Part shown: piece after piece, positions 302-36,073 of the stretch
How positions within the stretch are numbered: the stretch's first letter is position 1
Layout of the letters: each line of letters begins with the position of its first letter
Assembly: GCF_032854445.1 (NCBI RefSeq)
Contig: NC_088300.1
Span: forward strand, 77,491,966-77,555,965
Direction of reading: 5' to 3'
DNA from: Liolophura sinensis
Taxonomy: Eukaryota; Mollusca; Polyplacophora; Chitonida; Chitonidae
Length of the DNA: 64,000 nucleotides
Position numbers and translations under genes: made by a program
Notes under the pieces: model-generated
The model's database searches: none
What the model saw: the letters and a program-made list of their open reading frames with translations, nothing else
What the model was told of the DNA's origin: nothing

Positions 302-3300
302 CTGCCAAAATCAACACACAGAAAAGTGTGAACAATACGAAGCTTTGCTCATCAACACTCATCCACCCTGGAAGTTACTGTAAACGGGCCTTGAGAAAAT
401 TCCCTGCATTACTGAAAACTAACGACTTCTTCTTTCTATATATTATTTCTTACATATTCCTTTGGGAACTGGTGCTATAGGTTGTTTGGGAAATGGGTCT
501 AGCTATTATCCACTTGGAATTGTGTTACTGGTAACTAGAGCTGATGAGTGAAATATTCTGTCTCATCAGAGGTCTACCTACCATAATATTGGTGACACTC
601 CCCAGTCTGTTCATGTACTGGCTTTGGCTCAGAGCTTTTGGAGATGACCAGTTGACAAGTGCAAAGTGTTTCACACAGGTATAATCATTCATTTCATGGA
701 GGTAAAATACAGTACTCACAGTGCCTTGTGCACATTTCAATTTAGAGAGTAGGTCAAAGGTCAGTAGTGTGGATTCAAATTTAATCTGGTTGGCAGTGAG
801 CTGTATTGAAATTGTCTGAGTATATTTGGAAAGGAGCATTTTAAGTAAACAATCTTAAAATACCTGAATACATTATTATTCCTTACAATCATACATATTT
901 TTGATAGGCTTCCTACCCAACAGCAGACAGAACAAGTATACCAAATTTGAAGAACAAATATGAAATAGTTTAAGAGAGAAGTTCGTCATTAAGTTCATGA
1001 CTACTAGAATACCCTTTATCTTTACCATAGTCAAAGACTCCCCAGGGAAGGTTAAACAGTTAATCACTACTCTGTAAGAATCTTGACCTAGGGAATGTTG
1101 GCATTAGTCTGAAGTGTTACACACTCTAATGCATCCTGTAAAATACAGGCAATATACATCAGCAGCTACCAGGAGAATGTAGATAATGTACCTGTGAGTG
1201 GGCCAGGCTGTAAAGGCTGTGGGAGGCTGTCATCGCTTGCCTGTCCCATCAACTGCTCAATCAACTTCTGAGCCTCACATATATTCCCTGCATGCCCCTG
1301 GTGAGTCACATTTGTGGGAAGTCCTATAGACAGAATCTAAAACACAAAATATATAATGCTAAGTTCACATCAACTATTTTTTCCCCTAAACAGCTGAAAA
1401 TTCCATTCCACAAAGAAATTCAGATATTAAAAAAATACTGTCTGACAAGCAAGACATAAGATCCCATTAAGTCTACAGATAAATTAATCTCCTAGAGAAA
1501 TGGTTGCATATTTAAATTCATTGCAAGATGTGAATTGTAAGCTCTGGGGATAAAAAACAGCACACATATTCGCTAAAGTTATCTTCCTACCTTTTTCTGT
1601 GGGCTAGTGCCAGCCTTCTTTGGCATATTCTGCGGCCTCATTGGGGGCCTCATTGGGGGGCCAGGCTTAGCTGGGGCAGCTTTACCTGTACATACAACAA
1701 CAAATGTTAATACTAGGCTTCAATGAATAGTAAATCCAAGAAAAATTGGTTATGGTTTACTTTAACGCATGAATACCCTTAATCTTCTGTCCATAAAACT
1801 TTAACACAGCAAATTTAATTTGTCTCATTTTTTGGTATCCATTCTAAATACTACGAGAAACTACACATTGTTGCATATTCATTACAAGAAAGTCCCTATT
1901 CAGAAATCTAAATAGAAATGTGCTTTACAATGTACTGATGAGCACATTTTGTGAGCAACGGGCAGATTTTTAGACAAAAACAAAATTTACCCATAAAGTA
2001 GATGGTGTTATGTATGCAAATTGAGAAATTATGTACATGCAAAGACTGGATCACAACATAGTGTCTTAGTACCCCTTAAAGCCTCACCTGTTGCAGGTCG
2101 GGGGGGCCCACCTGGGGGGCGCTGAGGGGGCGGCGGTTTGGCAGGGGGAGCCGAAGGCCTCTGTGGGGGGTTGCGTGGGCGCTGAATTTGAGACCAGTAT
2201 CAACATCATCAACAACACACATATTAACTTCAGTGCATATGTCATTGTACCAAATTTATCATTAAACCTCTGAGCTTCAGTCTAATCAATATTCTACAAC
2301 AACACACATATTAACTTCAGTGCATATGTCATTTTACCAAATTTATCATTAAACCTCTGAGCTTCAGTCTAATCAATATTCTACAACAACACACATATTA
2401 ACTTCAGTGCATATGTCATTTTACCAAATTTATCATTAAACCTCTGAGCTTCAGTCTAATCAATATTCTACAACAACACACATATTAACTTCAGTGCATG
2501 TCATTGTACCAAATTTATCATTAAACCTCTGAGCTTCAGTCTAATCAATACTCTACAACAACACACATATTAACTTCAGTGCATATGTCATTGTACCAAA
2601 TGTATCATTAAACCTCTGAGCTTCAGTCTAATCAATATTCTACAACAACACACATATTAACTTCAGTGCATATGTCATTTTACCAAATTTATCATTAAAC
2701 CTCTGAGCTTCAGTCTAATCAATATTCTACAACAACACACATATTAACTTCAGTGCATATGTCATTGTACCAAATTTATCATTAAACCTCTGAGCTTCAG
2801 TCTAATCAATATTCTACAACAACACACATATTAACTTCAGTGCATATGTCATTTTACCAAATTTATCATTAAACCTCTGAGCTTCAGTCTAATCAATATT
2901 CTACAACAACACACATATTAACTTCAGTGCATATGTCATTTTACCAAATTTATCATTAAACCTCTGAGCTTCAGTCTAATCAATATTCTACAACAACACA
3001 CATATTAACTTCAGTGCATATGTCATTTTACCAAATTTATCATTAAACCTCTGAGCTTCAGTCTAATCAATATTCTACAACAACACACATATTAACTTCA
3101 GTGCATATGTCATTGTACCAAATTTATCATTAAACCTCTGAGCTTCAGTCTAATCAATATTCTACAACAACACACATATTAACTTCAGTGCATATGTCAT
3201 TTTACCAAATTTATCATTAAACCTCTGAGCTTCAGTCTAATCAATACTCTACAACAACACACATATTAACTTCAGTGCATATGTCATTTTACCAAATGTA

Positions 3301-6300
3301 TCATTAAACCTCTGAGCTTCAGTCTAATCAATATTCTATGCCTACACAAAACACGTTCTTATAAAAGCATCCAGGAACGTGATCTGATGTAAGTGTAGAG
3401 CTACATATATTTGTACTTCACAATGACATTTCTAATCATTTCTATTCACAATAAATTTCTGATTTATTTATTCACTTGATCACATGAAAAAGAATACAGA
3501 TGTATTTCACTGATACAATGGCAGTCAGGTATATTTTTAAAGAAAACCGATAAAACTGAAACAAACAAAAAAAATTACTGCCCTTCACAAGGCTTCCTAC
3601 AAATTCCCTTAACAGCCCTGCCAAACTCATTAGTAAAGTACCTAATGGCTGTGGCAAGAGTGATGTTTGAAGAACGAGAAAGGTTCCAGGAACATCTGAT
3701 TAAGTTATCATTTTGACAAGGGAGCCTGAAATGGATGTCACATACAGACTACTTTACCTCTGGTGAAGGAGAACTTCTCAACCTGGGCTCTATGCTTGGC
3801 ACAATAGGCGTTAGCCCCTGTGGGGTGTCAGTTTTCCTCCTCAAGCTGGGTGATGCTGCTGGCCTTGGGGGTGGGGGTTTACCAGGACGCAGCGGTGGGA
3901 CGTCCCCCACAGGGTTGGTCAAGTCATCCAAAATGACAGGTGTGTTACGACCTGAAAATTAAATCCATCAATACATTCATCACCATCTTCAAATCACTCA
4001 CAATACAGTGCCAGCTCACACTTAACATTATTTGTTAAGATTGCTAAGGCACACTTCAAATGCCTAACATTTGAGTACCACTGTTAAAGGTATACACTCC
4101 TAAAGTTACTCAATAAGATTGAGTAATCATAGCTTGGTTAACTATAGTTCTTTTACCATTTTTTACATACTTAAATGAAACATATACACCAACATTGTGG
4201 TGTCAGGAGATATAAAATACTGCGTGCATTTGTATGCGCACAAACCCCGGATTAATGTAGTTCCAACATTAAATCTACTAACAGACATGCAATACATTTA
4301 ATTTCCCGATTGATAAATTAGACAGTAAAACCTACACATGTCGACACAAATCATTACAAACACATTTTATATTTTATACACTTGTTTTACATAAATGTGT
4401 AAAAACATACTTTCTAAGAAAACAGTGCAAATAATTACTAGCCTAATATTAATGTTTGTTTTTTATATATCACACCTCGGCCCACAAATGTTCCTAAATA
4501 CTAAATGTAGCACAGCATTTCTTAGTGTATGTACAGCCAATATTTGCCACTGTTGTAGAGAGAAGTAGACTATTACCTGAGGAGCTGGGTGAGTCTGAAC
4601 CAGGGAATGTCTTTACACCTGACATGATGAGATCAGCAGCTGTTCTCTCCACTTCTTCATCATCATCACCTGCTACAATTAAGCAAAACAAGAGTAACTC
4701 TGGTATCAAAAGTCATGTTTCCTCAAAAACAGAAACACAGTTATGGTCAAAGATGTTTATTGTCCGAGCAAAAATTTATGCACTTCAGAGTTTACAAGTT
4801 ACAACTGTCTATATGATGTCAGGTGGGCATTTTACAGAGTGAAAAAGCAAAAGTCCTACTCTTTGTTGCATACAGAGGGAAAATTGGAAAATTTTAATAT
4901 ATTGTGTAACTTAGCACTAAGTTTTATACATTTCCTGGCACTACAGCCTACCTTGTCCAAGGTCATACTCCATGGACGGCACACAACAAGCACTACAGTC
5001 TGCCTTGTCCAAGGTCATACTCCATGAACGGCACACAACAAGCACTACACCCTACCTTGTCCAAGGTCATACTCCATGGACGGCACACAACAAGCACTAC
5101 AGCCTGCCTTGTCCAAGGTCATACTCCATGAACGGCACACAACAAGCACTACAGCCTACCTTGTCCAAGGTCATACTCCATGGATGGCACACTGAAGTCA
5201 TCACCCAGGAGACTGTTGGTCACATCATTATACAGCTTGCCAGTGTTCAGGGCACAGAGCTTCATCTCCTTCTCTATCTCACTTTTCCAGTCTGGGGTCT
5301 TCAGCCTCACCTGTACTGATTTACTATTAATCTGTGACATACAGAACAGCACACCTTTGTTATTTATTTGGTTGTTTTGTTTTTTTGGATACACTTGTTA
5401 ATACAAATTAAACAGGAAATAACATGTTATCCTCATTCTGGCTAACATGCTCCAGAAAGAGGCCGTATTTTCTGAATTTCAATGACTTCATGAAGTCCTG
5501 ATAGATATCCTCATAGGTAGAAGTCTTTGTGACATGGGAAAGCCTAACTGGATTCCAGTGCCTGTGAGTAGGTGATGTATTCCTGAGTACAATGTATACT
5601 GCCATCACATAGATACTGACAGCTTAGTGAAGATCATATAGCGTTACATGTGTGTCCTTATATAGGAAATATGTAATGCGTCGAGAAAATAACTCCATGG
5701 CAACATACTTCTATATATTATGATGATATTTTGAATTTCACTTGAACTGTCAGCTGTACATGTGGACAATGATTCAGAAACAAACCTCAAGTCGATTTTG
5801 TTTGACAGCTTGTAGAGCAGCCTTGCCAGATCTGAAGGTAAGCCACATGTCAGTGCCCACAAACCTGTCAACAAGAACACATTGATATAAACCAGTGTTA
5901 CTCTTCCCAGAAATGGTTTTGTTTATTTATCGGCTTGCAGTTTTATATCAGTAATTATTGACAAACAAAGACTGATACATAGGAATACTTCCGCCTAACA
6001 TGTCTCAGAAGCCAATAGATGCATGAAGAAAAGTCTTAAGAGGAGCAATCATGCCCACTTAGCCAGGTGCATACAAGGTGAACTTTCTGTTGGATCAATG
6101 CCTACCTGACAAGAGTTATCTCCCCTATTTCTCCAAATGTGGACACAACCTCATCCACCAGATCATCATCAAAATCCTCCAGGTTTTCTGCCGAGACCAC
6201 AACTGTGCCATCCAGGGGACCATGGTCTCCTATCACTTGCTGATATACCTCGTCTTTTTTGTCATCTTCTACCACTAAGGCATCCACATCAAAGAGTGCC

Positions 6301-9300
6301 ACAACAGGTCTGAAAGGCAAAGGGACAGAAGAAATTCTGTACATGTACTTGTCATGACTCAGTAACAACTACACTTACACCTAGAAAACACAAGCTGTGA
6401 CTAGAAAACTGCAGGTACTATGCATAAATCTTTGATTTTTGGTGACTGCAAAAGATTGTGGCAATTCGCTGAAATCATGGGTAGACATAGTTTTGTTGTG
6501 ACCGTGTCATTGGCTATTTGCTGTGGATCATTTCAGCATATATTACCTGGGCACGTACAGAATGTTCTTAAGTACAGAGATCCAACTGCTGTAACACCTA
6601 TATATAACATACTAGTACAAACTGAAAATATAGAACACCTGCAGCACCACTTCAAACTACAAGCATTATATTTTTGCAACTTTTAAGTGGGCATTCCACC
6701 GGCAGAAGACACCACAAAGAACACGAAGGATATAACTGCAGTGTATGTAGACAACTAATTTTACTAGGGTACAGTTTTGTACACCTTTAACTTGGTTTGT
6801 TTAATATATTTAATGGTTAAGAATTTACACCTTCAGATCACTGTATGCTTAAAGTCATGTTGTAAAGGATCGCTGAATTTCTACATCGCAATCTCCATGT
6901 GAGATTAACTGGTCACAATTGAAAACACAATTAATTACTGGCTTACCTGTGATCTGAAGTCTTGAGTTCAGATCGGTTGTACAAAAGAAGTCTTCCCTGA
7001 TTCCAGGAAGGGTCCTCTTCTGCATCTGTTTAACAGTACAATGACAACAAAAATCTTGTCATCATATTTAACCAGTTGAATGATGATAGGACAAGTCTAC
7101 TTGTATTGAGTGAATGCTATAAATCCCATGAAGCAGCATTTGTCCTAATTTCAACAGAATGGCAATGAGATGATATGATACATATAACCGTGTAAACACA
7201 GCTATACACCCTGTCTGCAGCAAGTTTGTGTTGGGTATGCCATTCAGACAGCTCAATTCAACTGACAAACTAAAACTAACCAGATCTGACAGCTTCCAAA
7301 ACATGATTACCTTCATCATGACAAGTAATATCAGAGTCTATTTCAAGATACCTTGTTTCCGTATCAATGGCCGCCTCCTCCAAAGCACCCTATCAGTCCA
7401 CGCAGGCACACGGCACTTTTCACTGGTATCATAGTCATCACAAAACTGATCATACTTGTAGGTGGGTGCAAAATTTGTCTTCCCCTCATTGAATCCTTGG
7501 AACACCTACAAGTAAGCAGGAGCATCATTTAACAATGAAACACAATTCTTGATCAACAACTGATCACCACAAAGTCAGCTACTTCGTGAACTGGTGTTCT
7601 CCTTAGGTAATTCCAAATTTTGTTAATCCATCAACTGGTGTGTAATATTATATTTTCCAATCCAAACTTTTTTTGGGGGACTAAAATACAAGCATTATTC
7701 CTCTACGGAGTGAGCTCCTATATATTTGTAGCCATCTTATGATGTACATGGTGATGAGAAATCACTCAATGTTCTAAAAGCAAAAAAGGACAATGTTTGT
7801 CATCTGAAGTTTTATCATTTCAGACGTGTGTACATATAGTTCAGAAAACATGAATCATTTACACCAGTATTATCCTGCCCATCTGATTACTACATATATA
7901 AACCTTGAAGCTGATACATACACACAAGCAAACTTACATTGCCCAAGTGCCTCTGGACGTTTAGCTGGTCACAGGCTTGGAGGGCAGACCAGTTCTCACT
8001 GTCTATCAGGGACTTCACTTCCTCATTACTCAGGTCTATCCTGTAGTTGAAGTCCCCCGTCCAGAACACATAGTCATGGGAATGTAAATTACGACCCTGT
8101 GAACATTGGCAAAGAAGAATCTCTCTCAGAGCAAGACACCAGTACATGTACACAAAAATCCAAACATTCTTTACCATCAGAGACATATATTCTGACAAAT
8201 GGATGTTGGCTTACCAAAATACAGGTTTGGAATTTTCTAGACTAACTTTCTGATACAACCTATGGTTGACAACAGTTGATTCACGAAATATTGTGTATAC
8301 TAATATTAAAATTATTCCTACATGAATACCAGTAATATGGCATTTGTTTCCCAAGGTTAAAATGATCCTAGCTTCTCAGGTTTGTTTCAATGTACACAAG
8401 CCGAATAAGGCTGTCACAGCTAGAACTCAAGTTCACTTTTGCATCTGCATGGAAATAAAATATGACATTTGCTAAATACATGTATTTAGATTTCCATTAA
8501 CAAAGTTTAATTTCACAGCTAAATCAGTCTGTGAGCCAAACATGACAGAGTCTGCCTCTAATCACAAAGCTAGGTGTAAGTTACATTTAATCAAGCCAGG
8601 CTTTCAGTCCATGCAGAAAAATACAAACTTCATTCCATTCCCACCTTGAATACAAAAATGCATACTTAAGTAGCAATAAACCAGAATGTGTGAGGATTTC
8701 TGAGAGGGTGGGATTATCTTCTAATTGATCTCCCTCAAGACCCAAAATGTTCATGTTACATGTAGGGTGATGCTGATGCCCTTGTTAGTGCTTGTGCTTC
8801 ATGGTGTATAACCTCATCAAGTGCTTGTGCTTCATGGTGTATAACGTCATCAAGTGCTTGTGCTTCATGGTGTATAACCTCATCAAGTGCTTGTGCTTCA
8901 TGGTGTATAACGTCATCAAGTGCTTGTGCTTCATGGTGTATAACGTCATCAAGTGCTTGTGCTTCATGGTGTATAACCTCATCAAGTGCTTGTGCTTCAT
9001 GGTGTATAACGTCATCAAGTGCTTGTGCTTCATGGTGTATAACCTCATCAAGTGCTTGTGCTTCATGGTGTATAACGTCATCAAGTGCTTGTGCTTCATG
9101 GTGTATAACGTCATCAAGTGCTTGTGCTTCATGGTGTATAACCTCATCAAGTGCTTGTGCTTCATGGTGTATAACGTCATCAAGTGCTTGTGCTTCATGG
9201 TGTATAACCTCATCAAGTGCTTGTGCTTCATGGTGTATAACGTCATCAAGTGCTTGTGCTTCATGGTGTATAACGGCATCAATTGCCTGTCCAGGATATA

Positions 9301-12300
9301 CATGTACATGTAAGGGATGTACATGAATATCATGAAGATGACAAAAATTTTTTTTACTGAAATATTGAAATGTCTAATATGCGACTTTCAGAGACATGTT
9401 TTTTGGAGTATCTATGCTTTTGCACTATGCTAAGGGATGATCATGTATAGTGAGATAATTTCATGCTGAGTTCAGGCTTCTGGGTTTCTATTAACACTTG
9501 TAGAGTACACACATGCCACTTGCCTATTAACCTGACTGAATCTCTACTCCTTACAGTTTACAATATACATGGATGCATAACATTCCCTCTATGTCCAAAT
9601 AACAAGGGTTAAAACTTGATGAATAGAACATGCTTGAGATGCTGACATCTTCATGCTGTAATGTACAAACACCATAGGCAGTCACTCAGCCAGGCTACCC
9701 ACATAGAATGTTACAGCAGGTTACATAGTACAACACTGTTAGTCACTGGGTATGGCAGTTTGTTAATGGGGCTGGACATATCATCATGGGAGGGAAGTTG
9801 GGTCGCAGAGATAGCTGGACTCCCAGGACATTCCCAGATACATGAAAAATGACATTGGCGTTCCATTTTATTGTGTCACAATCTTTTGTGTTGTCTGTAT
9901 AATCTGACTCAACACAGATTATTTCTATTCAGTTGTGACCGTTGAACAATGAGGTACCGTTCAAACTTAACTGGCAAGTTTTAAACGTAGTGATGTTCAT
10001 GCACATGTTCAGTGGATGTTTACACTGTGGATTTTAATAATAGCAATTCTTGTCATTGCTTATGTCCACTGACAAAGCACAGGTGATATTCTCACCTTTC
10101 ATTAAAGGCAACAATAGATAATTACTGAATATCTGGAAATAAATTTCAATTTCAACTGTTTTATTTATTTATTTATTATTTTGGTCTCTGAACTATAAAC
10201 ATGCAATATAAGCTAAACAGATCTGTTGCTGAAAATTAGAAATGTTTACAAAACAAAAACACAGAAACAATAAATTCTTCCTATTGTATTGCAATCACAA
10301 CACACAAGTCACCATGCTATAATATCAGCTAACAAAACAGCAGCCTGTCGGCTGGCAGCAGTCATGTGACAGAGATGGTACATACCATGCACACCTCCTG
10401 TTGGGCAAAAGAAGAATGAAACATTTGGGGATAAAATGGTGAGGTGAGGCCGATGAAAAAACATGTACATCTAATTCGGTCAGATAACTACCAAAGGGTG
10501 GGCAAAGCCTTATGACATACAGTTGTACAGGAATATTATCTTGTCTGCATATATGGTCTCAAATGAGAGGAGCTTTAAAAAATACATTCCGGAAAGACAC
10601 TGTGTTAAGGGGAGGTAAATGATATCAGAATTTACACTGTTCCCTCGCATTTATGCGGATTGATTTACTGCGAAATCAGAATTAATGCAATCGTTTGGTT
10701 TCCACCATTTTTTTTCTTTCTTTTGCTCGAGAGAGCAGTGTAATAACATTGTCAATATAGTGTTTATCTTTAAAATTGGACTGCGCAGCCAGAGAGCAGC
10801 CAGTGGAATGTTGTACCTTTTAATTATATCATATTTCATGTATGTTTTTATTAAAAAAAATCCTGTGTGGTTCATTCATCTGACGGCACATGACTTCACA
10901 AAATGTTATCCCGCTTTATCAATAGCAAATGGAGCAAGGGGGGCACCATATGAACTATTGACCTTGCCGGACTGTATACACTCGGTACAAACCACAAGCA
11001 GAAAATATCACGTCTCAATAACAGGTTCCAAGAGGCAGTGGTAGCCTGCATCTGGATAAGGTTCTGCATGAAAAAGCTCACATAATAGCTATAGCTATAA
11101 TAATGGTTAGTGTTTCTTAGATATCTGAATCTGTATTGTTTCATCATGTTAGGAATCTACATAACAAACTTTGTTCACATTTAAATGTTTTGTTAGGCAC
11201 GGCAAGAACAAATTCTAGAAGTCAAACTTACATTTGGGAAGGTGACCCTCCGGGTGATCTCGGAGTAGTTACTGTTCCGATCGTTAACACCTGACTGTCC
11301 AGCGGCCAGGTGAGCACAGACAAAGACAACCGATGTGCTATGGATCAGGAACCTTATTGCCACGCCCCCTTTATTACCCATAGCCCCGCCTAATCCAGTC
11401 TTCACAATATCCACAGCAACATCTCTGAAAACAGAAATAGAATATGTAAGAAGAAGTACAAAGCACTTACATATAACAAATCTTCAAATGTTTAAATGCA
11501 GATTTCATTTTTACCTATAATGACACAAATTTTCAATCAATTCCTACTAGTCTCTGGTCTCAACCTCCTAATAACCACCCACTCACCTGATGAAGGGGGA
11601 AAGGTATGGTCTCAACACACAGAGAAACACTCCCATCAGCTCAGCTGAGGTCAGTATTGGTGAGCCTTAATAACCACCCACTCACCTGATGAAGAGGGAC
11701 AGGTGTGGTCTGAACACACAGGGAAACACTCCCATCACCTCAGCTGAGGTCAGTATTGGTGAGCCTTAATAACCACCCATTAACCTGATGAAGGGGCACA
11801 GGTGTGGTCTGAACACACAGAGAAACACTCCCATCAGCTCAGCTGAGGTCAGTATTGGTGAGCCTTAATAACCACCCATTAACCTGATGAAGGGGCACAG
11901 GTGTGGTCTGAACACACAGAGAAACACTCCTATCAGCTCAGCTGAGGTCAGTATTAGTGAGCCTTAATAACCACCCATTAACCTGATGAAGGGGCACAGG
12001 TGTGGTCTGAACACACAGAGAAACACTCCCATCAGCTTAGCTGAGGTCAGTATTGGTGAGCCTTAATAACCACCCATTAACCTGATGAAGGGGGCCCGGT
12101 GTGGTCTGAGCACACAGAGGAACATTCCCATCAGCTCAGCTGAGGTCAGTATTGGTGAGCCTCAATCCTCCACTCACCTGATAAAGGGGGCGAGGTGTGG
12201 TCTGAACGCACAGAGGAACACTCCCACCAGCTCAGCTGAGGTCAGTATTGGTGAGCCTCAATCCCCCACTCAGGTGTGATCTGATGAAAACACAGACGAA

Positions 12301-15300
12301 CACTCCCACCCATTAACCTGATGAAGGGGGACAGGTGTGGTCTGAACACACAGAGAAACACTCCCATCAGCTTAGCTGAGGTCAGTATTGGTGAGCCTTA
12401 ATAACCACCCACTCGCCTGATGAAGAGGGCAAGGTGTGGTCTGATGAACACAGAGAGGAACACCTCCACCAGCTCAGCTGAGGGCAGTATTGGTGAGCCT
12501 CAGTTCTCCACTCACCTGATGAAGGGGGCGAGGTGTGGTCTGAACACGCAGAGGAACACCCCCACCAGCTCAGCTGAGGCCAGTATTGGTGAGCCTCAGT
12601 TCGCCACTCACCTGATGAAGAGGGCCAGGTGCAGTCTGATGAACACAGAGAGGAACACCTCCACCAGCTCAGCTGAGGCCCCTATTTGTGAGCCTTAATA
12701 GCCACCCACTCACCTGATGAAGAGGGCGAGGTGTGGTCTGATGAACACAGAGGAACAGCCCTCCGTCCAGCTCAGCTGAGGTCAGTATTGGTGAGCCTCA
12801 ATCCCCCACTCAGGTGTGGTCTGATGAAAACACAGACAAACACTCCCATCAGCCCAGCTGAGGGCAGTATTGGTGAGCCTTAATAACCACCCACTCGCCT
12901 GATGAAGAGGACAAGGTGCAGTCTGATGAACACAGAGAGGAACACCTCCACCAGCTCAGCCGAGGCCCGTATTTGTGAGCCTTAATAACCACCCACTCAC
13001 CTGATGAAGAGGGCCAGGTGTGGTCTGATGAACACAGAGGAACAGCCCTCCGTCCAGCTCAGCTGAGGTCAGTATTGGTGAGCCTCAGTTCTCCACTCAC
13101 CTGATGAAGGGGGCCAGGTGTGGTCTGAACACACAGAGGAACACCCCCACCAGCTCAGCTGAGACCAGTATTGATGAGCCTCAGTTCGCCACTCACCTGA
13201 TGAAGGGGGCCAGGTGTGGTCTGATGAGCACAGATAGGAACACCTCCACCAGCTCAGCTGAGGCCCGTATTTGTGAGTCTTAATAACCACCCACTCACCT
13301 GATGAAGAGGGCCAGGTGTGGTCTGATGAACACAGAGGAACAGCCCTCCCTCCAGCTCAGCTGAGGGCAGTATTGGTGAGCCTCAGTTCTCCACTCACCT
13401 GATGAAGGGGGCCAGGTGTGGTCTGATGAGCACAGATAGGAACACCCCAACAGCTCAGCTGAGGTCAGTATTGGTGAGTCTCAATATTCTACTCACCTGA
13501 TGAAGGGGGCCAGGTGTGGCCTGATGAACACACAGAGAAACACCCCCACCAGTTGAGCTGAGGTCAATATCACATATTTGTGGTCACGTGATATAGTCTT
13601 CTGTACCTCTTTCTGCCATTCCCGTGCATTGGTCGTACTACAAAGACACACACACACAGAGAGCTTCAAAACAGACATCACTGGTCTGTATACAAGCACG
13701 AATACAGATGTTTCGGAGAGTTGATCAATCACAGGAAATTAGGAATAAACACAAAAAAGACATTAATAATAGTTACATCTTTATAACAAAATATACTGTA
13801 TACTAGACTAATTTTAAATTTACTGCCAAGATTCATTGCTTCCCTTTCAATTTACCGATGTACATAGAAGTAGTACAAATTGGTTAAATTTACATGGCCT
13901 TCAGGCAAGTCCAGAGGTTGTCAGAGGTTGATTTGGTGCTCTACCTATCTCCTTTATGACAGGCAATGCACAGTACCACCGGATCCTATCGTATATCCTA
14001 CACCTATGGTGGCTGGACATCATGCAGATGGCCCGGATATCAAATGCTGGCCCTGATCCACACCATACTGTTATCCTGACACGATCATCTGCCCATGGTG
14101 GGACCATCATTCGCCCATGGTGGGACCATCATCTGCCCATGGTGGGACCATCATTCGCCCATGGTGGGACCATCATCCGCCCATGGTGGAACCATCATTC
14201 GCCCATGGTGGAACCATCATCCGCCCATGGTGGGACCATCATCCGCCCATGGTGGGACCATCATCCGCCCATAGTGGGACCATCATCTGCCCATGGTGGG
14301 ACCATCATCCGCCCATGGTGGAACCATCATCCGCCCATGGTGGAACCATCATTCGCCCATGGTGGAACCATCATCCGCCCATGGTGGGACCATCATCCGC
14401 CCATGGTGGGACCATCATACATGGACCGTGCAGCCATGATGGCTGCAGGATATTCAGCTGGGATCCGGCTGTGGTATTGCTTTGTATCACTTTGTATCAC
14501 TTACCTTGCACTGACTATATTGCTGGCATTGAGATCAACAATTTCCTCAAACCCCACAGCAAATATGTCCACTGGTTTGTCAAAATCAGCCCCTTCTGCC
14601 ACAAAACCTTGTAAAATGAACATCAACCAGAATCAGTTGATTAGTTTAACTAGTTAAGAGGAACCTATAAGCCGGAGATTCAGGTTCAATTCCGCATCAT
14701 AACATACTTACGATCGTATATATTGGTACCTAACCAAAGGAGGATTAACCGAACATTGGTTGCCTGGTACACTGCCGCTAGCTAGGGCATCATGTATGGT
14801 ATCTTCAGCTCCGTATTTGAGGAAAGCAACACTATATTAAATATATTTGCCTTGTCACAATCAAACCCATCACCAGAGAAAGGTTACAACTGATGCCAAA
14901 TACCAAACACACACAAAAACAACAACGCATACATCTTTACCAATATGGATGATCTTATCCATCTGGCGTTTTATAACAAATCTGGCCCACTAGGTCTAAT
15001 AGAAGATTTCAATGGGAGACAAAAACAAACTACACTGAACAGACCAAATTACAGCAGAACGCATCATTTTCTTCTGTGAAGATGTCGTGCGTGTGTATTT
15101 CATATATGTTTTATGAGCACACATACACAGAAAATTGTGACGTAATAAAAGAATGAACAAATGAGATTTTGGACTGTCTTGATACAGACAGGAAAGAGTT
15201 GTAGGAGTTCCTCATTAAGAACGTTGATACATATCACACAACAGACTTTCAGACATTTTGTTTTCTACAAGTATTCAACCATTATAATACATTTACAGGG

Positions 15301-18300: not shown

Positions 18301-20870
18301 TTGTTAAAATTAAATTTAGTGTCAGCTTCATTAATTAATCATCAGCTTCATGAAGTTAGGTCAATGTTTGAACAAATTTATTTTCTAAATGACTATTACA
18401 TGTGTATTCAATATCAGATAATTATCTGTATATCATATGTACCTGTTATGTTAACATACTCTAATGTTCTGTTCACATCCTACTATCCTACTCACTTGTT
18501 CTGTTTCTACAAAGTTAGCTACATGGCCATCATCATTGGTTCCTCTAACATTAAACCTGGTACCAGCCCTCTCACAACTGAGCCTGGAAATGAGGCAGGC
18601 CTTGGCTTGTCTGTGCGCAGCATATATTGTTCTGATCTCTATCCCTCCACACATTACCTTCAGTAACCAGGTAGAACAATCCACACCAAACCTTTGTAGA
18701 TGGACATGTAACATTCGATTCCTGAAACAAAACAAATGTTATTATCATTCAGCTGTACCCGTATACGTGATGTGAGGGTAAATCTTTACATATTTTGCCA
18801 GTTACCGTCACGATGAATTGTGCTTTTAAACAAATAAAAATAGGCATGGCATGCAGTGCAATGTTGAATTCTTGCACTCAGGTTAATTATTAAATGAATG
18901 GCCCTTGTTAAACCCAAACTGACTGACAGACTAAATGATTTACAGATAAAGCTACATATATGAAAAAGCCTTTGTAATACTGTACATGTATGGTCTGCAC
19001 GTAACAATACTATCTATTCAAATTTTTAGTGTCACTCATGAGGGATGCATTCTAAGATATACATGAACAAACAGCTAAAACATAGAACAGCAGATGTCAC
19101 ATGACCATGTGTAAAAAGGACGTGTTCAAAGGAAGCCTTTCTAGTTACCAAAAGAATCTGTTGTCAGTGTCATGATCTTGGAGAGCTCTCTGTGCGCACA
19201 GACTCAAATCCCAAGAGACGGATGTAGGTGACCAGGAGAAGTAAAATGTTCCCGAGTTCAGCAGTTTTCTGACCTCCACAATTTTATCATCATCACTGGG
19301 GTGATTTCTCAGGGATATAAACTGTGTGGTCATGATACGGAACACTTCTGACTCTCCTATCCTACCCACAGACAAACAGCCAGTGACAACGACCAGGTAC
19401 TGGATCATCTCATCACCTGTGGAAACATGTATGACAAACCTTAGATGAGAGCCAGAGATAACAAAGCTGCACCAATGACGTGATCCTTAAAACACACTTT
19501 AGAGTAAGACTTGGGGGAAACAATTGTGAATAAATCAATTATTTGCTTCTCTGTAGAGAGGAAATCCCCAACAGAAAGTATGAAGATGAATTTACTAATT
19601 TTTGTAAAACACCTGATAAAAACTACTCAAAACCTAATATTTTACCTGCTGCAAGGCTCATTACTCCTAAACATCCATAGGCATCTACAACTTTCCCATA
19701 CTGTCTTCTAATAGTGTCAGTTTCTGCAGCAGCTGAAAATAATAAATGTAGAAATGGGAAATTATTAATGACACATGTACATGCACAATTAATTTGTAAC
19801 ATACATGCTATTATCATACACTATGAGGTCACAGGTTCAAATCCACCTGTTTGAACTGCCGCACAGCTGCCTGCAGACCGCTCATAGATGCATGAATCTA
19901 CATAAACTGAATTTTCTGACTAGAACTTGCAGCAGATATTGTAATAAGCCTGATGGCATGCCACAGTTCTAGTCAGAAGTCGCTCCATTTAAAAAAAAAT
20001 CTGGAGTTTCCAAACACCGTTGGTGACGTTAAATTACCCTTTTTGTCATTCTCTCCTTGTTTTCTGCCTGGTAAGTTCATTCTGAACAATATTTTGATGA
20101 ACAAAGTCTTTGACACCTATTCTCCATTCACCAATGTTCACACACACCGAAACTCTTAATTCCTTTAAATGGAGACACTTCTAAGTAAAACTGCAGCATG
20201 CCACCAGGTTTATCACAGTATCTGCTGCAAGTTGTAGTCAGAAAATTCGGACTAAAATCAACCAGTTGATGGCAATAATTAGGACTTGCTAATGTGATAG
20301 CAAATTGGGTGTAACTGTGAGTTCATGCTGAATGATACCAGAAATACATTGAAGCTGACCAGCTTTTGTGCAAGTTTATTTCGTGGAGCCAATTAAATGA
20401 TGTCAATTGTCATGCAATCAAATAACTATATATACATGTACATACATTCAAATGTTATATACATAGGCCTACAGATATATGCATAGCAGGCCTAGATATC
20501 GCGAAATAACTACAAAAAGGTTTACCCCATAATGTGCATTCAAGTCAATTTCTACAAAGTACAATTCCAGGTCTCAGTGAGCCACGAATTATAGTAAATT
20601 TAAAAACAACGCGAAATAAATGCTTGTTTTCACTGAGAGCACCGACAGTGACTTGACAGCAGCGGAAACAACAACAGCGACCATTAATCGAAACCATAGA
20701 GTGGATTTACGGCGTTAACATTAAAAAGTCAAGAATCTTACACAGCACAGCCACAGCATTTGATTCGAACATTAAGGTGTCGTCGATATTTCTGTTTCTA
20801 GTAATACACTATACGGTGTGTCTAATTTATGATAGACCCGGTAGGCCTTGCTCATCGTCTGAGAAGCCAT
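1..20870 (-). CDS. SYNJ1: Synaptojanin (SAC / inositol polyphosphate 5-phosphatase), 26 coding exons, C-terminus cut by window edge
   Basis: Synaptojanin dephosphorylates PI(4,5)P2 and related phosphoinositides to free clathrin and adaptors from endocytic vesicles, mainly at synapses. About 1,300 residues can be spliced together. In order they give a SAC domain (about 1-480) with catalytic CLDCLDRT at about 385-392, and a 5-phosphatase domain (about 507-850) with GTWNVNGG (533), WTGDFNYR (727), PAWTDRV (802) and SDHRPV (843). An RRM-like DUF1866 domain follows (about 850-950), then a proline-rich tail that is still open at base 1. All junction phases agree except that exon 1 is one base short. 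The start [17 protein letters not shown] aligns with the vertebrate N-terminus. Whether this is the SYNJ1 or SYNJ2 orthologue cannot be told; one ancestral gene is expected in invertebrates. Minisatellites lie in introns 12, 13, 14, 20 and 22. In the other introns, including 302-1191, 9300-11231 and 15000-15360, I see nothing recognisable apart from a MITE in intron 1. Confidence 0.95.
1192..1336 (-). CDS. SYNJ1: Synaptojanin exon 25 (C-terminal region)
   Basis: Acceptor GTTTTAG|ATTCTG, donor CTCACAG|GTACAT. Encodes [36 protein letters not shown]. The frame is open and the phase agrees on both sides. The sequence itself is not strongly family-diagnostic. Confidence 0.75.
1591..1685 (-). CDS. 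SYNJ1: Synaptojanin exon 24 (proline-rich domain)
   Basis: Acceptor TGTACAG|GTAAAG, donor AAAAAG|GTAGGA. Encodes [32 protein letters not shown], with a short internal MRPP duplication. Confidence 0.8.
2088..2181 (-). CDS. SYNJ1: Synaptojanin exon 23 (proline-rich domain)
   Basis: Acceptor AATTCAG|CGCCCA, donor GCAACAG|GTGAGG. Encodes [20 protein letters not shown] then [11 protein letters not shown]. The stretch is GC-rich and proline-dense. An 87-bp array begins about 20 nt upstream of the acceptor. Confidence 0.85.
2203..3341. repeat. 87-bp minisatellite, about 13 copies, synaptojanin intron 22
   Basis: Near-identical tandem units of about 87 bp. Each contains the core CACACATATTAACTTCAG and GAGCTTCAGTCTAATCAATA. 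One unit has a 2-bp deletion near 2500, and a few single-base variants mark subtypes (CATTGTACC against CATTTTACC). The array ends about 20 nt from the 3' splice site of exon 23. No coding content. Confidence 0.97.
3758..3951 (-). CDS. SYNJ1: Synaptojanin exon 22 (proline-rich domain)
   Basis: Acceptor TTTTCAG|GTCGTA, donor CCAGAG|GTAAAG. Encodes [20 protein letters not shown] and [11 protein letters not shown]. The PxxP motifs with basic residues are the kind that bind SH3 domains of endophilin and amphiphysin in this family. Confidence 0.85.
4577..4669 (-). CDS. SYNJ1: Synaptojanin exon 21 (acidic linker)
   Basis: Acceptor GTAGCAG|GTGATG, donor CCTCAG|GTAATA. Encodes [20 protein letters not shown] then [11 protein letters not shown]. 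Phase matches both neighbours (1 to 1). There is little family conservation here, so support is mainly splice sites and frame. Confidence 0.78.
4931..5158. repeat. 52-bp array made from the exon 20 end and donor, 4 copies plus the parent
   Basis: Units start near 4951, 5003, 5055 and 5107, with the parent at 5159. Each minus-strand unit carries TCCATG(G/A)A...GACCTTGGACAAG followed by a donor-like G(T/C)AGGC. Units alternate between two subtypes, giving a 104-bp dimer. Confidence 0.95.
5160..5331 (-). CDS. SYNJ1: Synaptojanin exon 20 (end of RRM-like domain; parent of 52-bp array)
   Basis: Acceptor GTCACAG|ATTAAT, donor GACAAG|GTAGGC. Encodes [31 protein letters not shown] and ends SMEYDLGQ. 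The last about 30 nt plus the donor are repeated 4 times in the following intron. Confidence 0.9.
5786..5864 (-). CDS. SYNJ1: Synaptojanin exon 19 (RRM-like domain)
   Basis: Acceptor TTGACAG|GTTTGT, weak donor CTTGAG|GTTTGT. Encodes [27 protein letters not shown], matching the MWVTF block of vertebrate synaptojanin. Confidence 0.85.
6106..6309 (-). CDS. SYNJ1: Synaptojanin exon 18 (end of 5-phosphatase, start of RRM-like domain)
   Basis: Acceptor CTTTCAG|ACCTGT, donor CTTGTCAG|GTAGGC. Encodes [20 protein letters not shown] through [13 protein letters not shown] and [10 protein letters not shown], the first RNP-like strand of the DUF1866/RRM region. Confidence 0.94.
6947..7025 (-). CDS. SYNJ1: Synaptojanin exon 17 (5-phosphatase domain)
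   Basis: Acceptor TAAACAG|ATGCAG, donor ATCACAG|GTAAGC. Encodes [19 protein letters not shown], carrying the conserved SDH(R/K)PV that continues into exon 18. Confidence 0.92.
7352..7505 (-). CDS. SYNJ1: Synaptojanin exon 16 (5-phosphatase catalytic motif)
   Basis: Acceptor CTTGTAG|GTGTTC, donor AAACAAG|GTATCT. Encodes [19 protein letters not shown] then [22 protein letters not shown](V/I)L is the diagnostic inositol 5-phosphatase motif. Confidence 0.95.
7938..8096 (-). CDS. SYNJ1: Synaptojanin exon 15 (5-phosphatase catalytic motif)
   Basis: Acceptor TTCACAG|GGTCGT, donor GGCAAT|GTAAGT. Contains [20 protein letters not shown]; the aspartate and asparagine of the (W/F)xGDxNYR motif are present. 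Confidence 0.96.
8788..9285. repeat. 33-bp minisatellite, 15 units in a five-unit higher-order pattern, intron 14
   Basis: Unit CTTGTGCTTCATGGTGTATA followed by AC(C/G)TCATCAAGTG. Because 33 is a multiple of 3, several frames stay open on both strands (for example 8785-9333 minus), but these are repeat artefacts and not genes. The C/G variant order is CGCGG three times. Confidence 0.97.
11232..11424 (-). CDS. SYNJ1: Synaptojanin exon 14 (5-phosphatase domain)
   Basis: Acceptor TTTCAG|AGATGT, donor CCAAAT|GTAAGT. Encodes [28 protein letters not shown] and [18 protein letters not shown], all conserved catalytic-core blocks. Confidence 0.96.
11583..13492. repeat. About 100-bp array made from the exon 13 3' end, donor and intron start, about 18 copies
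   Basis: Each minus-strand unit resembles the last 74 nt of exon 13 (core CTGGTGGGGGTGTT, then CCTTCATCAG), a donor (GTGAGT in most, GTTAAT in about five, GCGAG in two), and about 25 nt of intron. It lies directly downstream of the authentic exon 13. Some units contain small indels or truncations, for example around 12260 and 12820. ORFs on the plus strand here are artefacts. Confidence 0.96.
13497..13637 (-). CDS. SYNJ1: Synaptojanin exon 13 (5-phosphatase; parent of the intron 13 array)
   Basis: Acceptor TTTGTAG|TACGAC, donor TTCATCAG|GTGAGT. Encodes [38 protein letters not shown]. Its last 74 nt plus the donor are repeated about 18 times in the following intron. This copy is the authentic one because only it has the 5' half of the exon and an acceptor in phase with exon 12. 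Confidence 0.95.
14088..14425. repeat. 22-bp minisatellite, about 15 copies, intron 12
   Basis: Unit CGCCCATGGTGGGACCATCA plus TY, with GGGACC/GGAACC variants. Nearly every unit contains CCATGG. It produces plus-strand ORFs of up to 233 aa (13956-14657) that are spurious. It sits just beyond the exon 12 donor. Confidence 0.96.
14505..14607 (-). CDS. SYNJ1: Synaptojanin exon 12 (5-phosphatase domain)
   Basis: Acceptor TTACAAG|GTTTTG, donor GTGCAAG|GTAAGT. Encodes [26 protein letters not shown]; the FEE(I/M)V(D/E)LNA motif holds the metal-binding glutamate. A 22-bp minisatellite starts about 85 nt beyond the donor. Confidence 0.93.
15364..15552 (-). CDS. SYNJ1: Synaptojanin exon 11 (start of 5-phosphatase domain)
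   Basis: Acceptor TCACCAG|CTCCTG, donor AAAACAG|GTATGA. Contains [20 protein letters not shown], the first 5-phosphatase motif, then SDWLLDAGK. Confidence 0.95.
15877..16033 (-). CDS. SYNJ1: Synaptojanin exon 10 (SAC to 5-phosphatase linker)
   Basis: Acceptor TTTTAG|TACTCT, donor CTACATG|GTAAGC. Encodes [31 protein letters not shown] and [15 protein letters not shown], conserved in synaptojanins. Confidence 0.95.
16590..16745 (-). CDS. SYNJ1: Synaptojanin exon 9 (end of SAC domain)
   Basis: Acceptor TTCCAG|ATCTTA, donor TCAAAG|GTGAGG. Encodes [20 protein letters not shown] through [16 protein letters not shown]. Confidence 0.95.
16946..17027 (-). CDS. SYNJ1: Synaptojanin exon 8 (SAC catalytic motif)
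   Basis: Acceptor TTGCAG|CAACCA, donor TTAGAG|GTGATC. Carries the SAC phosphatase CX5R(T/S) signature as [12 protein letters not shown], with the catalytic cysteine at about residue 385. It is too short to appear as a free-standing ORF. Confidence 0.96.
17270..17439 (-). CDS. SYNJ1: Synaptojanin exon 7 (SAC domain)
   Basis: Acceptor TTACAG|AATCAT, donor CAGAA|GTAAGT. Encodes [20 protein letters not shown] through [13 protein letters not shown]. Confidence 0.92.
17621..17779 (-). CDS. SYNJ1: Synaptojanin exon 6 (SAC domain)
   Basis: Acceptor CCGCAG|GTGGGG, donor TTCCAG|GTAATC. Encodes [20 protein letters not shown] through [18 protein letters not shown]. Confidence 0.95.
18011..18094 (-). 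CDS. SYNJ1: Synaptojanin exon 5 (SAC domain)
   Basis: Acceptor TTGTAG|GTACTT, donor ATACAA|GTCAGT. Encodes [20 protein letters not shown] then FWEQPGIQ. Confidence 0.93.
18496..18721 (-). CDS. SYNJ1: Synaptojanin exon 4 (SAC domain)
   Basis: Acceptor TTTCAG|GAATCG, donor GAACAA|GTGAGT. Includes the highly conserved SAC block [20 protein letters not shown] and [11 protein letters not shown]. Confidence 0.97.
19149..19416 (-). CDS. SYNJ1: Synaptojanin exon 3 (SAC domain)
   Basis: Acceptor CCACAG|GTGATG, donor TTTTG|GTAACT. Encodes [20 protein letters not shown] through DTDNRFFW. Confidence 0.95.
19646..19732 (-). CDS. SYNJ1: Synaptojanin exon 2 (SAC domain)
   Basis: Acceptor TTTCAG|CT, donor GCAG|GTAAAA. 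Encodes [19 protein letters not shown] and LGVMSLAAG, matching the SAC region after VAVL. Confidence 0.9.
19909..20250. mobile_element. MITE-like element with about 86-bp terminal inverted repeats, synaptojanin intron 1
   Basis: Left arm 19909-19994 and right arm 20164-20250 are reverse complements at roughly 85% identity, both running from GAATTTTCTGACTA through CTTGCAGCAGATA and GGCATGC to CCATTTAAA. The interior is about 170 bp with no coding. Each arm itself has an inner inverted pair (CTGACTAGAACT / AGTTCTAGTCAG in the left arm). No target-site duplication was identified. Confidence 0.8.
20742..20870 (-). CDS. SYNJ1: Synaptojanin exon 1 (start codon; contains 1-nt frameshift)
   Basis: ATG at 20870. 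It encodes [20 protein letters not shown] and onward, then breaks frame after VLLETE; the next frame reads [16 protein letters not shown], the expected continuation. The exon is 129 nt, but exon 2 requires 3n+1, so one base is missing, probably from the AAA run (minus strand) near 20790. Donor TGT|GTAAGA. Confidence 0.85.
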
Positions 20871-27879: not shown

Positions 27880-28000
27880 ATGGTCAGGTTTACACCTGAA
27901 CACTGCAGTGCCTGGAGTAAACCACCAGCCTTCTCTAGGTCCCCGACTTAAACCACAGCCAAAGCAGCAACAGCTGGATTTGAACATGCAACCTCCTGTT
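27880..28000 (-). mobile_element. SINE-like fragment
   Basis: On the minus strand it begins with a B-box-like GTTCAAATCC, then AGTCGGGGACCTAG and GTGTAAACCTGACC. It abuts the 46-bp array, so the array may have arisen from its end. Confidence 0.45.
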
Positions 28001-28003
28001 GCC

Positions 28004-28648
28004 AAGGAGCTGATAGTTGCAGCAACCCAGTGAGGCACTCGCCAATGCCACGGAGCTGATAGTTGCAGCGACCCAGTGAGGCACTCACCAATGCCAAGGA
28101 GCTGATAGTTGCAACGACCCAGCGAGGCACTCACCAATGCCAAGAAGCTGATAGTTGCAGCGACCCAGTGAGGCACTCACCAATGCCAAGGAGCTGATAG
28201 TTGCAGTGACCCAGTGAGGCACTCACCAGTGTCAAGGAGCTGACAGTTGCAACGACCCAGCGAAGCACTCATGAATGCCAAGGTGCTGATAGTTGCAGCA
28301 ACCCAGTGAGGCACTCACCAATGCCAAGGAGCTGATAGTTGCAGTGACCCAGTGAGGCACTCACCAATGCCAAGGAGCTGATAGTTGCAGCCAGCCAATG
28401 AGACACTCACCAATGCCAAGGAGCTGATAGTTGCAGCAAGCCAATGAGACACTCACCAATGCCAAGGAGCTGATAGTTGCTGCAAGCCAATGAGACACTC
28501 ACCAATGCCAAGGAGCTGATAGTTGCAGTGACTCAGTGAGGCACTCACCAATGCCGAGGAGCTGATAGCTGCAGCAAGCCAGTGAGACACTCACCAATGC
28601 CAAGGAGCTGATAGTTGCAGCAAGCCAATGAGACACTCACCAATGTTA
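28004..28648. repeat. 46-bp minisatellite, about 14 copies, downstream of CTBS
   Basis: Unit AATGCCAAGGAGCTGATAGT then TGCAGCGACCCAGTGAGGCACTCACC in full. Left-hand units carry GACCCAGTGAGGC and several right-hand ones carry AAGCCAATGAGAC, a clustered subtype. Confidence 0.95.

Positions 28649-33671: not shown

Positions 33672-36073
<2,402 letters not shown>

Follow-up and report, generated by a model that had tools for sequence, protein, structure and literature searches.

In the synaptojanin gene of the chiton Liolophura sinensis, the intron that follows exon 13 is for the most part a minisatellite, here called array 1, whose repeat unit joins the end of the exon, the 5′ splice site (donor) and the first bases of the intron. 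Arrays of the same build were found at a second donor of the gene and at exon boundaries in myosin and kinesin genes. They recall the "mirages" of amphioxus, which are described as minisatellite-like duplications of 5′ or 3′ exon-intron boundaries with splice signals in many copies (PMC3087553, PMC3902484). We consider array 1 to be, very probably, a minisatellite of the mirage type that was born neutrally and is tolerated at the exon edge. Positions in the window refer throughout to the 64-kb stretch of the L. sinensis genome that was analysed; the species was named Liolophura japonica in the genome paper (PMC11068029), and a correction to that paper renamed it L. sinensis.

Synaptojanin lies on the minus strand of the window and runs from the Sac domain (at about 20.9 kb) through the 5-phosphatase domain to DUF1866, with a proline-rich tail, read by eye, toward position 1. 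Exons were placed using a human SYNJ1 probe sequence together with the Pfam families Syja_N, Exo_endo_phos2 and DUF1866. When joined, exons 12–14 encode 145 amino acids, of which residues 9–144 match solved Synaptojanin-1 in a gap-free alignment (phmmer E 5e-58), confirming the identity of the gene given in the original prediction, an earlier note on this DNA. The gap-free match across exons 12–14 places the working boundary at the outermost unit of the array, as in a mirage, and this donor is presumably the one used in RNA. The original prediction had recognised the same donor site but set it at 13497, which is the last base of the exon.

Both unit alignment and a shuffle test support the derivation of array 1 from the end of exon 13 and its 5′ splice site: the exon 13 donor segment scored 77 against its own intron, compared with a shuffle mean of 19.0, and none of 100 shuffles scored as high. 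Intron 13 measures 2072 bp, approximately 93% of which is tandem array. Beyond the copy that forms the exon end there are 19 units of about 99 nucleotides (nt), each composed of about 72 nt of exon 13 and about 27 nt of intron and starting with a recurring ACTGACCTCAGCTGAGCTG, of which exon 13 carries its own version at 13568 according to the segmentation. The earlier estimate was about 18 units of about 100 bp; the 74 nt of exon then proposed per unit should be corrected to about 72 nt. A donor is retained in 18 of the 19 units, in the forms CAG/GTGAGT (11 units), CAG/GTTAAT (five) and CAG/GCGAGT (two), where the solidus marks the splice junction. With the donor of exon 13 itself included, the strings CAGGTGAGT, CAGGTTAAT and CAGGCGAGT occur 12, five and two times, respectively, much as had been predicted, and all 12 copies of CAGGTGAGT present on both strands of the 64 kb fall within array 1. 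Successive donors are spaced 96–102 nt apart, with exceptions of 185 and 140 nt, and one CAG/GTGAGT donor, at 12177, is interspersed among the five CAG/GTTAAT donors. In an assembly of 632 contigs and 609,464,459 bases, array 1 DNA matched only once, at its own locus.

Synaptojanin carries a further array, array 2 after exon 20, which escaped the original prediction. The exon 20 donor segment scored 96 against intron 20, and again none of 100 shuffles scored as high. Its unit consists of about 28 nt of the end of exon 20, the donor and about 24 nt of intron, and the junction at the end of the exon, CCATCCATGGAGTATGACCTTGGACAAG/GTAGGC, recurs with a 52-nt period to give five alternating donor sites, three GT and two GC, including that of exon 20. 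For the remaining 23 donors the copy test in the own intron gave z values of at most 1.5, and for the 25 acceptors (that of exon 11 being placed approximately) of at most 2.7, so that 2/25 donors and 0/25 acceptors of synaptojanin carry an array. Array 1, put forward as the most unusual structure in the window, is thus real but not a one-off.

In other genes we applied a fixed test, which scored as positive any boundary-crossing segment that recurred, at a threshold score of 40, in the adjoining intron no more than approximately 255 nt away. The sample comprised 69 exon hits: 41 myosin hits (21 of the 81 genome-wide myosin-head hits, which fall in four exon-rich stretches of 10 kb out of ten initially selected, and the 20 best-ranked of the remainder by E-value) and 28 kinesin hits (the first 20 stop-free of 132 hits and eight of the next 20). 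Thirteen of these had no callable donor and seven no callable acceptor. Positive results were obtained for 3/56 testable donors (locus L015 at 7556; L017 at 6716 and 9226) and for 2/62 testable acceptors (L018 at 3001; L043). Boundaries of both kinds are therefore affected, as in amphioxus, with donor-side arrays in synaptojanin, L015 and L017 and acceptor-side arrays in L018 and L043; when synaptojanin was included there was no significant bias between donors (5/81) and acceptors (2/87; P 0.26). Most units of the L018 array bear TTTGTAG/GTTTGAG, and because a gap of Ns directly precedes the array and the unit recurs at 1182–1444, the array is probably longer than the assembled copy. The L043 unit combines the end of the intron with roughly 30 nt of a kinesin exon. 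Arrays at L025 and L035 lie near a donor but do not cross it, and L037, by eye a likely donor mirage, scored 35 and was left out of the counts. One of the pre-set genomic windows (L008, 3467–5845) contains, after an exon-like stretch, an 89-nt unit in 27 copies, many of which have CATCAG/GTAAGA-type donors; this site is mirage-like at 3508, and with its exon unconfirmed it was also left out. A scan of the window and 17 loci for strong donors with a downstream copy and no upstream copy returned 27 rows, five of which were tied to exons (13496 and 5159 in the window, L015 7556, and L017 6716 and 9226). The other 22 were not, which suggests that many donor-bearing arrays are simply arrays.

Table 1. 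Boundary-spanning arrays and the exons and donors associated with them. Coordinates are those of the window or, for L018 and L043, of the analysed stretch; TRF, Tandem Repeats Finder.
Feature	Position	Strand or gene	Description
Synaptojanin exon 13	13497..13637	-	5-phosphatase domain; last ~72 nt form the exon-derived portion of the repeat unit
Exon 13 own donor, CAG/GTGAGT	13491..13499	-	First intron base 13496
Array 1	11569..13568 (approximate ends)	-	Exon unit and 19 units of ~99 nt; begins inside exon 13
Donor-less unit of array 1	12787..12868	-	Starts at 12868; donor removed by deletion
Fused 140-nt unit of array 1	12247..12386	-	Starts at 12386; one CAG/GTTAAT donor and an extra donor-less piece
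CAG/GTTAAT stretch of array 1	11781..12320	-	Five donors, first intron bases 12317, 12081, 11982, 11883 and 11784
Synaptojanin exon 14	11232..11424	-	Splice partner of exon 13; starts at 11424
Synaptojanin exon 20	5160..5331	-	DUF1866 end; terminates GGACAAG/GTAGGC
Array 2, after exon 20	4938..5192	-	52-nt unit, 4.9 copies (TRF); same build as array 1
L018 acceptor-side array	1645-3005	myosin gene	~43 units of 32 nt (TRF), up to the exon start
L043 acceptor-side array	1-309	kinesin gene	Period 64, 4.8 copies in the analysed stretch

Four further tandem arrays of the window (2210–3338, 8787–9290, 14084–14418 and 28000–28645) were not shown to cross an exon edge. The first consists of 13 units of 87 nt that are 98% identical and stops about 30 nt before the acceptor of a proline-rich exon; the majority of its units carry an acceptor-like TTGTTGTAG. 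In the last, a 46-nt unit recurs 14 times and in most copies includes GGTGAGTG, and by eye the sequence adjoining it resembles what we take to be the box of a tRNA-type short interspersed element. Exon 1 of synaptojanin (20743–20870) contains a one-base frame break, such that the match to SYNJ1 requires two reading frames; this may be an assembly error or a polymorphism. Upstream of synaptojanin, ATG8-family exons are present on the minus strand at 33675–34243, and Pfam scans of the plus strand from 34 to 64 kb and of the minus strand from 34.3 to 44.3 kb gave no family matches.

The idea that exon boundaries are preferred sites for such arrays was not supported by the controls. The copy test was positive at 127/476 positions between myosin exons, 125/479 inside synaptojanin introns, 218/2376 in 12 genomic windows (those existing of 20 pre-set stretches) and 1/373 in exon interiors. 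Relative to the sequence between myosin exons, sampled boundaries (5/118) were positive far less often (descriptive Fisher P 5e-9); relative to the genomic windows, they were positive similarly or less often (P 0.069); and relative to exon interiors, they were positive more often (P 0.004). Synaptojanin has five intron arrays, two of which straddle a donor, compared with 0.78 expected under random founding units (P for at least two, 0.16); this is not surprising if founding units are placed at random. TRF arrays occupied 12,072 of the 120,000 bases (approximately 10%) of the 12 genomic windows (L003–L014). The repeat table of the genome paper assigns 0.08% to the category "other" (simple repeat, microsatellite, RNA) and leaves 14.04% unclassified (PMC11068029), and the difference between the former value and ours suggests that minisatellite arrays may belong to the unclassified fraction. 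Boundary arrays would exist because minisatellites abound in the genome and are tolerated as far as the edges of coding exons but seldom within them; a founding unit may overlap an exon edge provided that the edge-most copy remains in use.

The units of array 1 are 0.77–0.99 identical to each other and 0.78–0.88 identical to the exon unit. Mean similarity between units peaks at a lag of three (0.900, with 0.845–0.871 for the remaining lags from one to seven) and near copies occur at U2/U5/U8 and U4/U10, so that duplication apparently involved blocks of several units at a time. The exon unit has both the lowest best match (0.875, compared with 0.899–0.990 for the 19 others) and the lowest mean identity (0.827, compared with 0.829–0.879). 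A low best match is expected of an array edge that is held by coding constraint, and concerted evolution inside the array with the edge copy excluded is again a mirage feature, the difference in mean identity being slight. Variable columns among the units are scattered over all codon positions (11/23, 13/23 and 11/23 at positions 1, 2 and 3), which favours drift. Among the options raised in the original prediction, whose interpretation is partly supported overall, neutral expansion fits best, given this scatter and the finding that boundary arrays are no commoner than arrays elsewhere; from the sequence, neutrality of array 1 appears the most likely state.

Array 1 would have been founded by a tandem duplication across the exon 13/intron 13 boundary, taking in about 72 nt of exon and about 27 nt of intron. 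Further copies would have been added on the intron side, with growth by unequal exchange or slippage, and the intron would have lengthened from roughly 140 nt to 2072 nt. In exon definition the acceptor of an exon is paired with the donor across that exon, and here the splicing machinery would pair the acceptor of exon 13 with the exon-adjacent donor, allowing the normal mRNA to persist. If the exon-adjacent donor is still used, the remaining copies lie hidden within intron sequence, where they are free to drift.

Several points weigh against a neutral mirage. Positions along one array are correlated, so that the Fisher P values are descriptive only, and the stretches between myosin hits may contain unseen exons. 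The boundary rates come from two gene families, and the two synaptojanin cases stem from the finding itself and do not provide an unbiased rate. The mean identity of the exon unit (0.827) is barely under that of the lowest array units (0.829). As had been noted earlier for some units, reading frames are often open: 14/19 units can be read in the exon frame as far as the donor without meeting a stop, and second codon positions depart least from the exon (42/430 differences, versus 74/432 at first and 77/432 at third positions). Both the open frames and the second-position deficit could stem from the copying that the units share and from constraint acting on the exon itself. That the exon-adjacent donor is the only one used is also something we infer from the sequence.

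A different explanation is that the donor ladder regulates splicing, its extra U1 sites competing with exon 13 for U1 or helping to recruit U1 to it, and that the outcome, full-length mRNA versus truncated, decaying transcripts, would depend on copy number. We regard this explanation as unlikely. By matrix the exon 13 donor scored 11.5, second among 25 synaptojanin donors, and its U1 duplex energy (-13.8) was the strongest of the 25. The 11 CAG/GTGAGT donors of the array are identical to it across nine bases, whereas none of 1008 other GTs in the 23 other synaptojanin introns reaches its score, and it is the least accessible of the 25 donors in the local fold (0.20); these matches and the low accessibility would suit regulation. 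So would reports that boundary tandem repeats alter splicing in human duplicated genes (PMC2812944) and that an intronic minisatellite of C. elegans is enriched near multiple alternative splicing (PMC4039745). However, the array donors are not preserved (five GTTAAT, two GC and one unit without a donor), boundary arrays are no commoner than tandem repeats elsewhere, and in amphioxus regular splicing is reported to be unaffected by mirages and is apparently normal (PMC3087553). Past a skipped first donor, the first in-frame stop is found at +1 in intron 13, where read-through meets a stop one base beyond the donor (AG/G TGA), at +8 in intron 20, at +15 and +49 in L017, and at +32 nt in L015. 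With stops within 49 nt in all five donor cases checked, a truncated protein would result wherever the exon was spliced straight from an array donor, which hints that normal splicing is undisturbed. A hairpin sequestering the true donor, with GGTGAGT opposite ACTCACC 17 nt downstream, was also considered and set aside: exact 7-nt complements of such kind occur at 2.3% of window positions, and in the unit alignment the GTTAAT and GC-donor units show no matching change in the partner.

It is very unlikely that the units serve as cassette micro-exons (TTCAG/24 nt/GTGAGT, with an in-frame peptide) or as recursive (ratchet) splice points. The 24-nt piece, examined by hand, is in frame with phase 2 at both ends, and the 14 open units are compatible with a micro-exon. 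A ratchet site would be an acceptor with a good pyrimidine tract and a donor immediately behind it. By a home-made matrix, the acceptor scores of CATCAG/GT (mean 4.2, 15 cases) and TTCAG/AC (mean 5.8, 8 cases) are moderate, those of real synaptojanin acceptors being 1.8–13.9; CTCAG, the acceptor suggested by the original prediction, is poor (mean -0.6, 17 cases). Against micro-exons, the variable columns show no codon pattern. The exon ends at the two synaptojanin mirage donors score 3.9 and -2.7 as acceptors, ranking 3 and 14 of 17 AG-ending exon ends, and those of L017 score 4.1 and -0.8; as a group, mirage donors thus do not stand out for acceptor-like exon ends, which speaks against ratchet splicing. 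More broadly, it might be proposed that chitons carry boundary minisatellites at a few per cent of splice sites, amounting to thousands of donor or acceptor ladders, some of them active in RNA, and that U1 kinetic decoys, or in-frame micro-exons or ratchet points, make synaptojanin splicing dependent on copy number; taken jointly, these propositions are quite unlikely to hold. An assembly artefact, in which a misjoin by the assembler multiplied a single true unit, is extremely unlikely. The frame break in exon 1 hints at small errors (or polymorphism) in the assembly, and sequencing coverage is given as 14X, yet array 1 spans 2 kb against a mean HiFi read length of 8,347 bp (PMC11068029). Sequence differences between its units moreover reach 23%, the units are organised at a higher order, and the same build is present in other genes.

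A minisatellite in human IFI6 (6-16) reportedly provides multiple splice donors (Nucleic Acids Res 1995), and in that respect it too would be a minisatellite with repeated donors in a transcript. Its units are short, and its donors are reportedly in use. The amphioxus mirages, examples of which are Adh3, the globins BflGb6 and BflGb9, and PGBD5, and whose name is attributed to Canestro 2002 by PMC3087553, share with the chiton arrays tandem units that contain an exon edge and the adjoining intron, splice signals retained in many but not all copies (here 18/19 units with a donor), and an edge copy distinct from the homogenised units. They differ in host, a cephalochordate rather than a mollusc, and in copy number, which reaches about 43 in L018 (by TRF, beside an N gap) versus six and three units described for two BflGb6 haplotypes. 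Internal boundary repeats in human segmental duplications, also minisatellites at exon edges, have reportedly given rise to novel introns and to alternative splicing (PMC2812944) and are the nearest case with transcript changes; they are supported by transcripts and vary between paralogs. Mirages also vary in length between alleles; the chiton sequence represents a single haplotype. Within the accounts of earthworm, amphioxus huntingtin and C. elegans repeats that we drew on (PMC4039745 for the last), no boundary-spanning array of the mirage kind is described, and our searches of one open-licence library gave no report of such arrays in molluscs. The kind of array is already known from amphioxus; of interest here are its occurrence in a mollusc and the fact that several genes are affected.

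If the rate of 5/118 boundaries were to apply genome-wide, which is an extrapolation, the chiton genome would contain very many natural experiments in splice-site choice. In its ladders an exon is followed by a dozen strong donors or preceded by about 40 near-identical acceptors (L018), and among these sites the conserved protein apparently comes from the exon-adjacent one only. Such ladders would test exon definition against intron-proximal-donor or first-AG models without engineered genes. Gene prediction can also be led astray by such arrays: in amphioxus PGBD5 an exon of mirage origin has been described that was predicted but is doubtful (PMC3902484), and a trap for exon annotation, as the original prediction suggested, is plausible for the chiton array. 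Finally, the arrays show one way in which introns can lengthen, and they supply material from which introns could be gained, as has been proposed for amphioxus (PMC3087553).

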